Translations under genes and position numbers: made by a program | Shown: in pieces, positions 2,677 through 7,862 of the stretch | Position numbering within the stretch: the first letter of the stretch is position 1 | Layout of the letters: the number at the start of each line of letters is the position of its first letter | Notes under the pieces: model-generated | Seen by the model: only the letters and a program-made list of their open reading frames with translations | What the model was told of the DNA's origin: nothing | Database searches by the model: none | Origin: a virus | Strand: one strand, 5' to 3' | DNA: 25,803 nucleotides | Virus record (IMG/VR): IMGVR_UViG_3300037807_000025 | Coordinates: 1 to 25,803 of that record

Positions 2677-3540
2677 ATGGCAAAGATCAGATATTCTGAG
2701 TATTTTTACTCTGTACAGGGTGAAGGTAAATGGGTAGGAACACCAACAGTATTCTTTCGAACGTTCGGGTGCAATTTAACATGCGCTGGGTTCGGACAAC
2801 CAAGAGACAATCATATACCTGAGGAAGAGATGCCTCACATGCTGGTATATCTTACTAACATCAAATCAGTAGAGGACCTTCCGGTAGTTGAAATCGGCTG
2901 TGACTCTTCAGCATCATGGAGTAAAAAGTATAAACATCTAAGTCCTTTCGCTGAGACTAATGAAATTGCGTCAAATTTAGGAGATCTCCTTACAGGTAAC
3001 TTATCATTCGAGGATAATGTTCACTTGTGTATGACAGGTGGTGAACCTTTATTGGGTTGGCAGAAAGCTTATGTTGAGTTGTTCCAACAACCTGAATTAG
3101 TGAATCTAGAACATCTTACGTTTGAGACTAATGGGTCGAAGATGGTACAGCAGGTACTCATTGACTATTTCAATAACACAAACGCGATGTTTACTGAAGT
3201 TACGTGGATGGTATCTCCTAAGTTATCATTAACCGGTGAAGATCAGAATGTTACTATTGATCCTGAATGCTTATTGTCAATGAATAAAGTGCTTAATTCA
3301 AACATTAACTTGAAGTTTGTTGTTAGAGATGAGATCGATTTAGCTGAAGTTGAAGCTGCCCTTGCAGCCTATGAAGAAGCGGGTGTTGAGATTGAGGATG
3401 TATTCTTAATGCCAGAAGGTGCTACGTTAGAAGGCCAAGAGTTGACAGAAAAGAATGTTGCAGAGTTGTGTATGAGAGAAGGTTATAAGTTCTCTCCTAG
3501 ATTACACATCAATTTGTTTGGCAATTCGTGGGGTACCTAA
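2677..3540 (+). CDS. queE: 7-carboxy-7-deazaguanine synthase QueE (radical SAM)
   Basis: QueE converts 6-carboxy-tetrahydropterin to 7-carboxy-7-deazaguanine using S-adenosylmethionine and a 4Fe-4S cluster. The protein has 287 aa and starts with the QueE hallmark YSVQGEGKWVGTPTVFFRTFGCNL; the SAM-binding motif TGGEPLL is around residue 120. The cluster cysteines are spread out: C32-x3-C36 is followed by F39 where the classical CxxxCxxC has Cys, and the likely third ligand is C75 in GCDSSASW. Inserted cysteine loops are known in some QueE proteins (CX14CX2C), and I recall similar long ones in phages. With queD and folE downstream it forms the first three steps of deazaguanine synthesis. ATG 2677 has GGAG at 6 nt. 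Confidence 0.93.
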   Translation: MAKIRYSEYFYSVQGEGKWVGTPTVFFRTFGCNLTCAGFGQPRDNHIPEEEMPHMLVYLTNIKSVEDLPVVEIGCDSSASWSKKYKHLSPFAETNEIASNLGDLLTGNLSFEDNVHLCMTGGEPLLGWQKAYVELFQQPELVNLEHLTFETNGSKMVQQVLIDYFNNTNAMFTEVTWMVSPKLSLTGEDQNVTIDPECLLSMNKVLNSNINLKFVVRDEIDLAEVEAALAAYEEAGVEIEDVFLMPEGATLEGQELTEKNVAELCMREGYKFSPRLHINLFGNSWGT

Positions 3541-3541
3541 A

Positions 3542-3982
3542 ATGATTAAGTATACTAATGAACAATACGTGAGAGATCTTGCAAAGATTAAAGATGAGAT
3601 AGAGTCGATGATCATGCGCGGTCATGTTAATATCAACATTGTAGGCCTCCATAGAGGATCGTTACCTATGGCTGTACATCTATCTAACATCCTCCCTGCC
3701 AAGATGTCGATTGTTAATTATCAAACCCGAGACGGCGATTCTACAGAACCTGTTTTCGCTCTTGATACTATTGCTTTAGGGGATACTATTATCGTGTTGG
3801 ATGATATTTACGATTCTGGTAAGACTATTAGAGACACTGTTGCTATGATTAGACAGAAGTATCCTGATCAATACGTTAAACCTATGGTGTTGTTTGGAAA
3901 AGATAATGAAGATGACTGTTCGTGGGTAAGAGAGCATACTGGTGAGTGGATTAATTTCCCTTGGGAAGTTGAGCTTAATTAA
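3542..3982 (+). CDS. Type I phosphoribosyltransferase
   Basis: 146 aa with the type I PRTase signature: the PRPP loop IIVLDDIYDSGKT (83-95; VDDIxDTGxT in the family) and, before it, VGLHRGSLPMAVHLSNIL (34-51), which resembles the pyrophosphate loop of xanthine/hypoxanthine enzymes. Such enzymes join a free base to PRPP to give a nucleotide. I start it at ATG 3542, one base after the queE stop; an in-frame TTG at 3518 inside queE would add eight residues but has little support. The base it uses cannot be read from sequence. Its place between queE and queD suggests guanine-like or deazaguanine bases, but ordinary purine salvage is equally possible. Confidence 0.85.
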   Translation: MIKYTNEQYVRDLAKIKDEIESMIMRGHVNINIVGLHRGSLPMAVHLSNILPAKMSIVNYQTRDGDSTEPVFALDTIALGDTIIVLDDIYDSGKTIRDTVAMIRQKYPDQYVKPMVLFGKDNEDDCSWVREHTGEWINFPWEVELN

Positions 3983-4040: not shown

Positions 4041-4760
4041 ATGAAAAAATATTATTACATATATAAAACTACTAATAACATCACAGGCAAAATCTATATA
4101 GGAAAGCGGTATGGAACATTAGATGAGTCTTATTATGGGTCTGGGGTGCATATTAAAAGATCTATAAATCATCATGGACAGTCTAACTTCACAAAGGATA
4201 TATTAGTTATTACTGACAACTTCTATATAGATGAACTAGAGAGAAATATGATACAACATTTTAATTCTCAGGACCCCTCAGTGGGGTATAATATATCTAG
4301 TGGAGGAGATGGGGGGGATACTTACCAAGGGAGATCGTGGAAAGAAGTTTCTAACACACAAGTGTATAATCGTAGAGTTCAAAAGAAGAAGGAGCGAGAC
4401 GCTGTATATTGGACTGATGCTAATAGAGCTTTATTAGGTGAGGCGGTTAAATCTAAACAATGGACAGGAAGTCGAGGCGCTAAAAGAAGAGAAGATCATA
4501 GAGAGCGCATTACAGGGTCCAAAAACCCGGGTGCTAAATCATATGAACTTACCGACACTGATGGTAATGTTATTAGCACGAGTTGTCTCAAAAGTTTTTG
4601 TGAAGATAATGGATTAGTAACATCTACTGTTAGAAGATTTGTTGGTGTTGGTAAGATAGAGAGGAAATCAAATAAAGATCATTCGTTTAAAAACTGCCAC
4701 ACTAAGCGTTTCTTAAATGGGTGGGAAATAATTGAAAAAACTGTTGACATTACAGCTTAG
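4041..4760 (+). CDS. GIY-YIG homing endonuclease (free-standing)
   Basis: 239 aa. The N-terminal catalytic domain has YYIYKTTNNITGKIYIGKR (5-23), i.e. the two GIY/YIG strands, followed by YYGSG and an E-x2-MIQHFN segment. The middle is basic. The C-terminal part (YELTDTDGNVISTSCLKSFCEDNG and RRFVG) resembles the NUMOD/IENR DNA-binding modules of homing enzymes. Such proteins cut a target allele so that their own gene is copied into it. It sits alone between the PRTase and queD, with its own late-type promoter and AAGGA before ATG 4041. Its 3' end (TGT TGA CAT TAC) contains the -35 box of the queD promoter. No intron boundary is evident, so I call it free-standing. Confidence 0.93.
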   Translation: MKKYYYIYKTTNNITGKIYIGKRYGTLDESYYGSGVHIKRSINHHGQSNFTKDILVITDNFYIDELERNMIQHFNSQDPSVGYNISSGGDGGDTYQGRSWKEVSNTQVYNRRVQKKKERDAVYWTDANRALLGEAVKSKQWTGSRGAKRREDHRERITGSKNPGAKSYELTDTDGNVISTSCLKSFCEDNGLVTSTVRRFVGVGKIERKSNKDHSFKNCHTKRFLNGWEIIEKTVDITA

Positions 4761-4801: not shown

Positions 4802-5383
4802 ATGATTATTAGAAAGAAGTTTAAATTTGAAGGTGCACACATAGTGCGTAATTGTTCTAGTGAACGGTGTAAGTTTTCTATACATGGTCATAGCTATGTT
4901 GTAGAGGTATTCTTCACTGGTGCAGGATTAGATAATGGTCAGATGATTATGGACTTTGGTCTCATGAAGAGTACTATTGGTGATTTTGTAGATTCATTCG
5001 ATCATGCATATTCTATGTGGGATAAAGAAAGCGACGAATTTAAAGAGTTTATTCATAACAACTCAGCACGATACATTAACATGCCAGTAAGTCCAAGCGC
5101 AGAAGCATATTCACTTATGATGTTCAAAGTAATCGATGCAATCGTTAATAATACTGAATTCAATAATGGTGAGAAGGATGTTGAGTTGTATGCTGTTAGG
5201 GTACACGAAACATTATCTGGATATGCTGAATCTCGTAGAGAAGATATGAATTGGGTTGATTGGGGTATTAAAGATATCACGTTCAGTGATGATATTAAGA
5301 GTGAGTGGAAAGATCCTGAGATGTTTGATAAGCTATTAGCAGGTGAGAAATTTATTAATGATAAAGTGGAGCAACAAGTATAA
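4802..5383 (+). CDS. queD: 6-carboxytetrahydropterin synthase QueD
   Basis: QueD turns dihydroneopterin triphosphate (from FolE) into 6-carboxy-tetrahydropterin, the QueE substrate. The 193-aa protein has the T-fold zinc ligands H13 (FEGAH) and H28/H30 (IHGHSY), a Cys at 23 likely to be catalytic, DFGLMK after strand 2, FDHAY for the catalytic Asp-His, and VRVHET with the pterin-anchoring Glu. It is longer than bacterial QueD (about 120 aa); the extra part is a 50-residue tail (MNWVDWGIKDITF...) seen, as I recall, in other phage versions. ATG 4802 has AAGGAG 7 nt upstream. Its stop overlaps the folE start (TAATG), so the two are co-translated. Confidence 0.92.
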   Translation: MIIRKKFKFEGAHIVRNCSSERCKFSIHGHSYVVEVFFTGAGLDNGQMIMDFGLMKSTIGDFVDSFDHAYSMWDKESDEFKEFIHNNSARYINMPVSPSAEAYSLMMFKVIDAIVNNTEFNNGEKDVELYAVRVHETLSGYAESRREDMNWVDWGIKDITFSDDIKSEWKDPEMFDKLLAGEKFINDKVEQQV

Positions 5384-6063
5384 TGCACGACAAAAGTAAA
5401 CAAAACGAGTCTTTAGGTAAACAAGTAAATGAGTATTTAGTTAAAATGGGAGTACAAACTCCAATGACAGATAAAGTACACGTGAATGATCAAATCAAGA
5501 TCAATGCTATTAGACGAGATGTTGAATCAACTCTTAAAGAATTGGGATTAGACTTAACTGATGATTCATTAATTGATACACCTAATAGAGTAGCTAAGAT
5601 GTATGTTAATGAGATCTTTTCAGGATTGAGAGCAGACACGTTCCCTAAGTGTACAGCGGTAGATAATAAGATGACACAAGGAGATGAGTTTGTGGTAGAA
5701 AGAGATATTACTTTATTCTCTGATTGTGAACATCACTTGCGACCTATCATTGGTAAGTGTCATGTAGCATACATTCCGAAGAAGAAGGTGTTGGGTCTAT
5801 CTAAGATGAATCGATTAGTTCAATACTTTGCACGACGTCCTCAAATTCAAGAACGCTTGAATCAACAGATTGCTCATGCTATGTCATTCATCACTGAATC
5901 AGACGATATCATCGTAATGGTTGATGCAGGTCACACTTGTGTAAGTCAACGTGGTGTTATGGATACTAATTCAACTACTGTTACTTTAACTGCCTTAGGT
6001 AAGTTTGGTGAACCAAATTCGCCATTAAGAGCAGAAGCATTAGCAGCTTTCACTAGGAAGTAA
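5383..6063 (+). CDS. folE: GTP cyclohydrolase I FolE
   Basis: FolE opens GTP to 7,8-dihydroneopterin triphosphate, the shared entry to folate and deazaguanine synthesis. In 226 aa it shows DTPNRVAKMYVNEIFSG, the zinc site C115/H118 in SDCEHHLRP, LGLSKMNRLVQYFARRPQIQERL, and H184/C186 in AGHTCVSQRG, with the zinc ligands as in type IA enzymes. The N-terminal 40 residues are a poorly conserved extension. The start overlaps the queD stop by one base and its own stop overlaps the next ATG in the same way, so queD, folE and the GIY-YIG gene form one translation unit. No folate genes are nearby, which points to the deazaguanine pathway. Confidence 0.96.
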   Translation: MHDKSKQNESLGKQVNEYLVKMGVQTPMTDKVHVNDQIKINAIRRDVESTLKELGLDLTDDSLIDTPNRVAKMYVNEIFSGLRADTFPKCTAVDNKMTQGDEFVVERDITLFSDCEHHLRPIIGKCHVAYIPKKKVLGLSKMNRLVQYFARRPQIQERLNQQIAHAMSFITESDDIIVMVDAGHTCVSQRGVMDTNSTTVTLTALGKFGEPNSPLRAEALAAFTRK

Positions 6064-6401
6064 TGGAACGCAAATCTAGAGGAGTTTATAGCGTTTGGGA
6101 TGGAGACCAATGTGTATACGTTGGATCCACCTCTTTAAAGCTTGAGTGGTTAGAGAATAACCACAGGGAGTGGCAACGCAAAGGATATTCTCCTACTAAG
6201 TTCAGACAAGCTCTTACTTCCACTCGTGCAAATGAGTCATGGGTATTCAAGTGGGTAGTTGAACCAAAGAATAACCTGACTCAAGCTTACATTGAGATTC
6301 AAGAAGAAGGGTTCATTCAATGGTTGAAACCAAAGTACAACGTTGATTTCAATCCGTATGAGTCATCCATTAGTTATGGCAGATATGGCAGATGCTGTTG
6401 A
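6063..6401 (+). CDS. Small GIY-YIG nuclease-like protein
   Basis: 112 aa. GVYSVWDGDQCVYVGST (7-23) gives the GVY and YVG strands of a GIY-YIG domain, and IEIQEEGFIQWLKPKYNVDF near the end gives the late Glu and Asn seen in the family. The Arg usually found after YIG is not obvious; H34/R35 come later. There is no DNA-binding module, so it is not a typical homing enzyme. It starts within the folE stop (TAATG) and is therefore tied to deazaguanine synthesis. T4 endonuclease II (DenA) is a small GIY-YIG enzyme that cuts unmodified host DNA; a similar role is possible here but is inference. A DNA-repair (UvrC-like) or structural role is not excluded. Confidence 0.78.
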   Translation: MERKSRGVYSVWDGDQCVYVGSTSLKLEWLENNHREWQRKGYSPTKFRQALTSTRANESWVFKWVVEPKNNLTQAYIEIQEEGFIQWLKPKYNVDFNPYESSISYGRYGRCC

Positions 6402-6426
6402 CTTCTAACTCATTATAGGGTATAAT
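6398..6426 (+). promoter_or_regulatory. Early promoter giving a leaderless mRNA for the 6434 gene
   Basis: TTGACT 6398-6403, 17-bp spacer, TATAAT 6421-6426. The TGA stop of the upstream gene (6399-6401) is part of the -35 box. The ATG at 6434 is 8 nt after the -10 box, at or next to the expected transcription start, so there is no room for a ribosome-binding site. Confidence 0.85.
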
Positions 6427-6433
6427 ACATAGT

Positions 6434-6808
6434 ATGAAAATAAAAAAACAAATGATATGGGTTAGGTTTACAAAGGAAGGAATTCATAAGTTCCCTGCTG
6501 CGCTGACTGAACCTGAGTTGAGTGAAGTTAAGTTCTTAGGTTACGACCATAGACACATCTTTCATTTTAAAGTAGGTATTGAAGTTAAGCATGACGATCG
6601 GGACATTGAGTTTATTCTATTCAAGAGATGGTTAGAGAGCTTATATGAAGATTCTACGTTAGAATTGGACTTTAAGTCGTGTGAGATGATATCTAATTCA
6701 CTTTGCGATGCTATTAATTATAAATATCCTCATAGAGACATCACTATTAGTGTGTCAGAAGATAATGAAAACGGATCATATAAGGAGTATACAAATGAAG
6801 ACATTTAA
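6434..6808 (+). CDS. Probable second T-fold protein related to QueD/PTPS
   Basis: 124 aa. The layout follows QueD: a first strand with H18 (RFTKEGIHKFP), then YDHRHIFHFKVGIEV with H39 and H41 in the position of the HGH zinc motif, a D-D-R-D-I-E-F-I-x-F-K segment like QueD's MDFGLMK, LDFKSCEMISNSLCDAI like the second helix, and DITISVSEDNENG like the strand that ends in the anchoring Glu. No Cys lies between H18 and H39, so the QueD catalytic Cys is missing. It may be a different T-fold enzyme or a partner subunit. I recall uncharacterised relatives in phages. It is expressed from its own promoter, apparently without a leader. Confidence 0.6.
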   Translation: MKIKKQMIWVRFTKEGIHKFPAALTEPELSEVKFLGYDHRHIFHFKVGIEVKHDDRDIEFILFKRWLESLYEDSTLELDFKSCEMISNSLCDAINYKYPHRDITISVSEDNENGSYKEYTNEDI

Positions 6809-7046: not shown

Positions 7047-7862
7047 ATGAGATTTTGTCACATATCACCACCTGCCTTCGCAGGCTACGCAGCAAACAAA
7101 AGTGGTCTCCACTTAACCTTAGCACACCTTGTTGAAGAGCAAGGTGCTGCATATTGTAACACCTTCCAAGACGGTAAAGACATTATTTTAGATAATTCTG
7201 CCTTCGAGATGTACAAGCAAGGTCGTCCAATGTATCCCTCAGATAAACTATTAGAAATGGCTGAACAGATCAATGCTGATTATATCGTAATGTCTGATTA
7301 TCCTGGGGAGCCTGGTCAAAAGACTATTGATGCAGCGAAGAAGTTAGGTCATATCTTTAAAGAGGCAGGATACAAAACGTTCTTCGTTCCTCAGTCAGAA
7401 GTAGGTGATTTTGATGATTACGTTGAAACCTTTAAGTGGGCACTTAAACAGGATTGGATCGATCTAATCGGTGTATCCATTCTTGGTGTTCCTAACGCTT
7501 ATGGTGTAGAGAAAGATAACAACTTACAAAGGTTCTTATCAAGGTGGCACATGATGAAGTATCTTGAGGATGAAGGCATCTTAGCTGATACAGATGAGAA
7601 GCGTTTACATTTCCTTGGTATGGTAGATGGTCCTAATGAGATTGATCTTGTAAGACCTTACCACTATTACATTAACAGTTGGGATACGTCAGCAGCAGTA
7701 TGGGCTGGTATGAATGATATCATGTTCGATGAAACTCCAACAGGATTAGAGTTTGGTAAGTGTGAAATAGAGGTTGACTTTAATGAAAAAGAATGGTATA
7801 ATCAGCATCAGGTTGAGGCTAATGTTAGCTTCATTAATTGGAAAGAAGGAGTAGAGATTTGA
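7047..7862 (+). CDS. TGT/DpdA-like protein, candidate DNA 7-deazaguanine transglycosylase
   Basis: 271 aa with the look of a TIM barrel. The order is ISPPAF and HLTLAHLVEE, then IILDNSAFEM (46-55; compare the DSGGFQ loop of tRNA-guanine transglycosylase), DYIVMSDYPGEP (78-89), KTFFVPQ (110-116), DLIGVSI (139-145), LHFLGMVDGPNEIDLV and INSWDTSA (209-216), with D49, D84 and D213 as candidate catalytic acids. DpdA proteins of phages and bacterial dpd clusters exchange guanine in DNA for a 7-deazaguanine and have this strand order. Presence in the same region as folE, queD and queE supports that role. I rely on remembered pattern rather than on an alignment; another TIM-barrel enzyme is possible. 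ATG 7047 has GGAG at 7 nt. Confidence 0.6.
   Translation: MRFCHISPPAFAGYAANKSGLHLTLAHLVEEQGAAYCNTFQDGKDIILDNSAFEMYKQGRPMYPSDKLLEMAEQINADYIVMSDYPGEPGQKTIDAAKKLGHIFKEAGYKTFFVPQSEVGDFDDYVETFKWALKQDWIDLIGVSILGVPNAYGVEKDNNLQRFLSRWHMMKYLEDEGILADTDEKRLHFLGMVDGPNEIDLVRPYHYYINSWDTSAAVWAGMNDIMFDETPTGLEFGKCEIEVDFNEKEWYNQHQVEANVSFINWKEGVEI
7774..7802 (+). promoter_or_regulatory. Early promoter inside the DpdA-like gene
   Basis: TTGACT 7774-7779, exactly 17 bp, TATAAT 7797-7802, with G before TATAAT as in the other copies. It lies within coding sequence and would start near 7809, giving a 50-nt leader for the TTG-started gene at 7859. Confidence 0.7.

Follow-up and report, generated by a model that had tools for sequence, protein, structure and literature searches.

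The DNA analyzed here (the window) is a virus record of 25,803 nucleotides whose gene content reads as T4-like, with clamp loader, family B DNA polymerase, UvsX-like, and helicase-like proteins and a ribonucleotide reductase. On its + strand, an ORF matching phrog_2076 (2677..3540; E 6.5e-48) is followed by a purine phosphoribosyltransferase gene next to queE (3530..3982; PF00156, E 7.7e-12) and by the genes encoding QueD, the 6-carboxytetrahydropterin synthase (4802..5383; PF01242, E 4.6e-21; phrog_2389), and FolE, the GTP cyclohydrolase I (5383..6063; PF01227, E 6.9e-57). The gene under study, which encodes a protein of 124 amino acids from an ATG start (6434..6808, + strand), comes after the queD-folE pair, where the sequence-only reading had placed it, with a short GIY-YIG ORF (6063-6401) in between. 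Another GIY-YIG ORF (4041-4760) flanks the pair on the other side, and both are likely to be homing endonucleases within the modification cluster. Further along the + strand lies the gene of a DpdA-type DNA guanine transglycosylase (7047..7862). A phosphoribosyltransferase is also present in 59 of the 127 loci in which the gene under study was compared (a redundant set), as well as in the corresponding cassette of Flavobacterium phage immuto.

No Pfam or NCBIfam model reached its cut-off with the 124-aa protein, and no match was obtained with PADLOC. In PHROGs it matches phrog_17812 (E 2.5e-31), a family still listed as being of unknown function, whose members are called "hypothetical protein" in GenBank. 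The hits returned by a sequence-only search of the PDB (bacterioferritin and a hypothetical protein, aligned over short stretches with non-significant or marginal E values) were discarded. Relatives were identified by tblastn in 26 of the 50,697 phage records in INPHARED, and by alignment-based scans in at least 588 stretches of viral contigs and in 8 MAG contigs, while none were found in plasmids. Since relatives occur in these three kinds of records, the ORF is not a chance reading frame.

The gene is preceded by a near-consensus sigma-70 promoter (TTGACT-17-TATAAT; 6398..6426, + strand), which shows 11 of 12 matches. Promoter-like sites in the overall scan were no more numerous than in shuffled sequences. 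Both hexamers and the gap of 7 nt separating the end of the -10 box from the ATG were kept in all five loci aligned (the window, L003, L005, L006, and L007), which are related to each other, one relative being nearly identical to the window. Because the -10 box ends only 7 nt before the start codon, the transcript is predicted to be leaderless, or nearly so.

The AlphaFold2 model built with 35 sequences of the family has a pLDDT of 94.4 and a pTM of 0.84, and the order of the elements in the predicted core is strand, strand, helix, helix, strand, strand. The best PDB matches given by Foldseek were the E. coli QueD structures 4ntm and 4ntk (E 3.6e-5, TM 0.65-0.71), followed by other PTPS proteins and then by QueF-like proteins (E 5.7e-3). 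On the basis of this model, the 124-aa protein almost certainly adopts the tunnel fold (T-fold). The family is also collinear with a QueD profile over 113 columns in hhalign (E 3e-5 in a one-template comparison; probability 73%), but the profile-profile probabilities of the family against QueD were only 58 to 77%. The sequence-only reading had described a QueD/PTPS-like T-fold protein on the strength of three histidines (H18, H39, and H41), a (D)IEFI-x-FK segment, a second helix, and a final SVSED strand. All these elements are present, the kinship with QueD is borne out by both the structural match and the profile alignment, and the model is a confident T-fold rather than a confident structure of another kind, which would have counted against this reading. 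The histidines, the loss of which in homologs would also have counted against it, are kept in all the 108 sequences compared. The T-fold domain may also occur fused to N-terminal regions at L037:5224-6375 and L040:5446-6327 (HNH-like in the case of L040), and either within larger proteins or in similar fusions in the BFVD entries A0A6J5LEZ6 and A0A8S5V119.

The resemblance to QueD/PTPS-I (COG0720, PF01242; 4NTK) extends to the putative active site. H18, H39, and H41 align with the zinc-binding histidines H16, H31, and H33 of QueD, and E109 with E110, the glutamate anchoring the purine; the helix-2 glutamate is also shared. The segments paired by the alignment are FTFEAAHRLP in QueD with FTKEGIHKFP in the T-fold family, HGH with HRH, IIDF with DIEF, PTSE with KSCE, and VKET with VSED. 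The residues on which catalysis depends in QueD are, in contrast, not retained. The cysteine C27, located four residues before the first histidine of HGH, corresponds to L35, which is a leucine in 108 of 108 sequences, and the catalytic Asp-His pair (D70/H71 in E. coli), neither residue of which varies among 17 QueD sequences from phages, falls in an alignment gap, the whole segment being absent from the T-fold family. Ten residues (H18, L35, H39, H41, R56, E59, S82, C83, E84, and E109) are invariant in the 108 near-full-length distinct sequences, and two of them, R56 and C83, are new with respect to QueD. The claim that the cysteine is missing therefore holds at the catalytic position of QueD, where a leucine is found, but it overlooked C83, located at the start of helix 2 in the only alignment column in which cysteine is common. 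As the family shows LxxxHRH in place of the PTPS-I signature CxxxHGH (PMC5041015), its members are not QueD enzymes. The PF01242 cut-off was not reached by any of the 46 members searched (best E 0.014, with a match in only 4 of them), whereas the true QueD of the window matches this model strongly. The T-fold protein is thus a cousin of QueD which is unable to perform the QueD chemistry with the QueD residues. The similarity with QueF and QueF-like proteins (nitrile reductase and amidinotransferase) is restricted to the fold and to the fact that QueF acts on a 7-deazaguanine via a cysteine: the PF14489 model of QueF did not match the T-fold protein of the window and was not among the families listed for the 46 members, and the nitrile on which QueF acts cannot be made without QueC in the phages carrying the T-fold gene.

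The genes accompanying the T-fold gene were analyzed in 24 long or complete records, namely the complete genomes of 11 named phages and 13 long contigs of viral origin. All 24 of them encode FolE and 23 encode QueE, the exception being a 68-kb contig that is possibly a fragment. QueD was identified above the PF01242 cut-off in 17 records, and one of the seven others is a complete named phage. No credible match with QueC was found in the 24 records, nor any match with QueF above the cut-off, under conditions in which the control phage immuto gave one. Cellulophaga phage phiST is an example of a phage carrying the T-fold gene and no QueC. Weak matches with QueC in four records were read from their sequences as other PP-loop proteins (NAD-synthetase-like, encoded beside a nicotinamide phosphoribosyltransferase-like gene, encoded beside a carbamoyltransferase, or asparagine-synthase-like). 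Since the protein at L127 retains a Cys-rich tail, a remote relative of QueC may possibly exist in Vibrio phage D479. In the set of 50,697 phage records, tblastn detected FolE in 392 and QueC in 331, which indicates that FolE is usually accompanied by QueC. In view of the rarity of FolE, its association with the T-fold gene is far from accidental, and it is unusual for QueC to be missing: the naive products over the 11 phages are 6e-24 for the company of FolE and 1e-9 for the absence of QueC, both of which are too small because these phages are related, although they leave no doubt about the direction of the effect. In the case of the window phage, of which the record spans 25.8 kb, QueC is presumed to be absent as in its relatives. 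That the T-fold protein belongs to the deazaguanine pathway can hardly be doubted, and it very probably acts after QueE, in the place of QueC.

The DpdA protein of the window gave an AlphaFold2 model with a pLDDT of 82.7, the best Foldseek match of which was a tRNA-guanine transglycosylase (E 1.1e-8, TM 0.57), which indicates a TGT-type TIM barrel, and it is related to the annotated DpdA of phage immuto (tblastn, E 4e-4). The Pfam TGT model PF01702 matched nothing at E 1e-3 in the 24 records; as the DpdA of the window does have a TGT fold, this negative result is uninformative about DpdA. Three types of DpdA-like proteins accompany the T-fold gene: D1, to which the window protein belongs; D2, which corresponds to phrog_10773 and has a relative in nt-1 and in other phages of Vibrio; and D3, a 540-aa protein present in PA5oct-like phages. 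D2 and D3 can be regarded as DpdA-like in view of their DSGG[FL]Q motifs and the annotation in phage X1. A 540-aa DSGGFQ protein of this kind, annotated as hypothetical (L032:3224-4846), has relatives in 72 loci, and seems to define a divergent DpdA-like family which PF01702 also misses. A DpdA-like gene was found near the T-fold gene in 111 of the 127 redundant loci.

QueC without the T-fold family is present in phages 9g, nt-1, CAjan, Dp-1, immuto_2-6A, BSP7, and PhiXhv-12. Among the D1-type phages, immuto and BSP7 have QueC and no T-fold protein, whereas the phages of the window type have the T-fold protein and no QueC was seen; among those of type D2, nt-1 has QueC, whereas ACP17, X1, and BUCT-ZZ01 have the T-fold protein. 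The two genes have therefore been swapped within two DpdA lineages. In the gene set they share one position, between QueE and DpdA, and each replaces the other, although QueC, a PP-loop enzyme of about 230 aa that consumes ATP, has an unrelated fold and the T-fold protein has no evident ATP site.

We therefore propose that the product of ORF 6434..6808 is an enzyme acting on 7-carboxy-7-deazaguanine (CDG) in the place of QueC. In the reading we favor, to which we assign a probability of roughly 0.6, it is a zinc-binding enzyme derived from QueD/PTPS which most likely decarboxylates CDG to 7-deazaguanine before DpdA acts. The computed evidence consists of the T-fold, the metal and anchor residues resembling those of QueD, the loss of the QueD catalytic residues, the company of FolE, QueE, and DpdA, and the replacement of QueC. 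CDG is proposed as the substrate because it is the last intermediate available without QueC, and decarboxylation is the simplest reaction because no ATP or NADPH site is evident, whereas a metal triad, an arginine, a cysteine, and glutamates are present. FolE, QueD, and QueE would convert GTP into CDG, which would then be taken by the T-fold protein instead of being converted into preQ0 by QueC. The guanine-like edge would be gripped by E109, together with the E84 region, as occurs in QueD and QueF, and the 7-carboxylate by R56 and a zinc ion bound to H18, H39, and H41; C83, H53, or E59 might serve as the general acid, and the release of CO2 would yield 7-deazaguanine. DpdA would subsequently exchange guanine in the DNA for this base, and the guanine released may be recycled by the phosphoribosyltransferase (3530..3982), for which we propose a salvage role of this kind. 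The final base would therefore differ from that resulting from the QueC route, which probably helps the phage DNA to escape restriction.

A point that fits decarboxylation poorly is a GT4-type glycosyltransferase gene which adjoins the T-fold gene in 82 of the 127 redundant loci (separated by a median of 236 bases and less than 1 kb away in 73 cases; examples at L032:4846-5907, L033:4963-5991, L034:3446-4606, L030:6384-7475, and L065:7632-8726). Of these loci, 67 have DpdA of type D3 and 4 have type D2. As 7-deazaguanine has no obvious handle for such an enzyme, a different product would fit better, at least in these phages: CDG might be converted into an activated or substituted 7-carboxyl derivative, for example, and then glycosylated by the neighboring enzyme, the window lineage stopping at the intermediate. 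The glycosyltransferase family is almost confined to phages carrying the T-fold gene (15 of the 19 named INPHARED records), one of its relatives adjoins a QueC-bearing ORF of 521 aa in phage PhiXhv-12, and C83 could form a thioester-type intermediate, as the cysteine of QueF does with its nitrile. The glycosyltransferase is absent, however, from the window and from all 35 D1 loci, in which the T-fold protein is equally conserved, it was not found at the locus examined in Cellulophaga phage phiST either, and neither a nucleotide site nor an NADPH site is evident, so that we take this other product to be distinctly less probable than 7-deazaguanine. The presence of the glycosyltransferase suggests that the inserted deazaguanine is glycosylated in the phages possessing it. 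It is conceivable, if doubtful, that in most relatives (the PA5oct/Paride-like phages, ACP17, Phosso, and many marine phages) the branch lacking QueC ends in an undescribed sugar-bearing 7-deazaguanine, inserted by DpdA and glycosylated by the GT4-type enzyme.

The other explanations bear on the protein itself. The sequence-only reading had hesitated between a new enzyme of pterin or deazapurine metabolism and a regulatory partner of QueD, and the gene company described above favors a new deazapurine enzyme. T-fold proteins form rings which are able to bind partners, and the frequent proximity of a DpdA-like gene might suggest a non-catalytic role, as a subunit delivering the substrate to DpdA or determining its specificity, if not as a regulator of QueD. 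This is improbable, since the invariant residues, which include the metal triad, a cysteine, an arginine, and three glutamates, are arranged as is typical of active sites, proteins as dissimilar as the three DpdA types are unlikely to share a dedicated subunit, and there are seven records in which QueD itself was not detected above the cut-off. These same seven records, along with the common fold and metal site, are what might be expected of a substitute or second QueD making or finishing 6-carboxytetrahydropterin with a relocated catalytic cysteine, C83; but a true QueD is also encoded in the window and in the 17 other records, the cysteine and the Asp-His pair of QueD have all been lost, and it would remain unexplained why QueC is absent, which makes this proposal slightly less probable still. 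A weak Pfam match with Tad6, an inhibitor of type I Thoeris (PF25188; E 0.011 over 29 residues), raised the question of an anti-defense nucleotide sponge. Its score of 16.2 bits is below the Pfam cut-off of 27, it was obtained in only 4 of the 46 members, and the neighborhood is one of deazaguanine synthesis; the match was rejected, and a sponge of this kind is very improbable.

Decarboxylation of CDG by the T-fold protein would provide a candidate for the step missing in phages that make CDG without QueC. In a 2023 paper, Cui et al. reportedly described deoxy-7-deazaguanine and deoxy-7-carboxy-7-deazaguanine in phage DNA, along with a predicted CDG decarboxylase, DpdL, for which the same reaction is said to be proposed in the same type of phage (FolE, QueD, and QueE without QueC). 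The T-fold family is found in the context expected of DpdL, with FolE, QueE, and DpdA present and QueC absent, and the two may be identical. If CDG is indeed decarboxylated by this protein, a T-fold enzyme would have turned from pterin chemistry to the cleavage of a C-C bond on a deazapurine, and whether a phage has the T-fold gene or QueC would tell which 7-deazaguanine is carried by its DNA, with consequences for the escape of this DNA from restriction.

In the Xanthomonas phage PhiXhv-12 (L138:3669-6903), the related glycosyltransferase is encoded beside a PIG-L-type deacetylase and the 521-aa ORF. The product of the latter, annotated as a glutamine amidotransferase, scores as QueC and is probably a glutamine-amidotransferase-QueC fusion, and this cluster might possibly specify a sugar-modified base of the archaeosine type.
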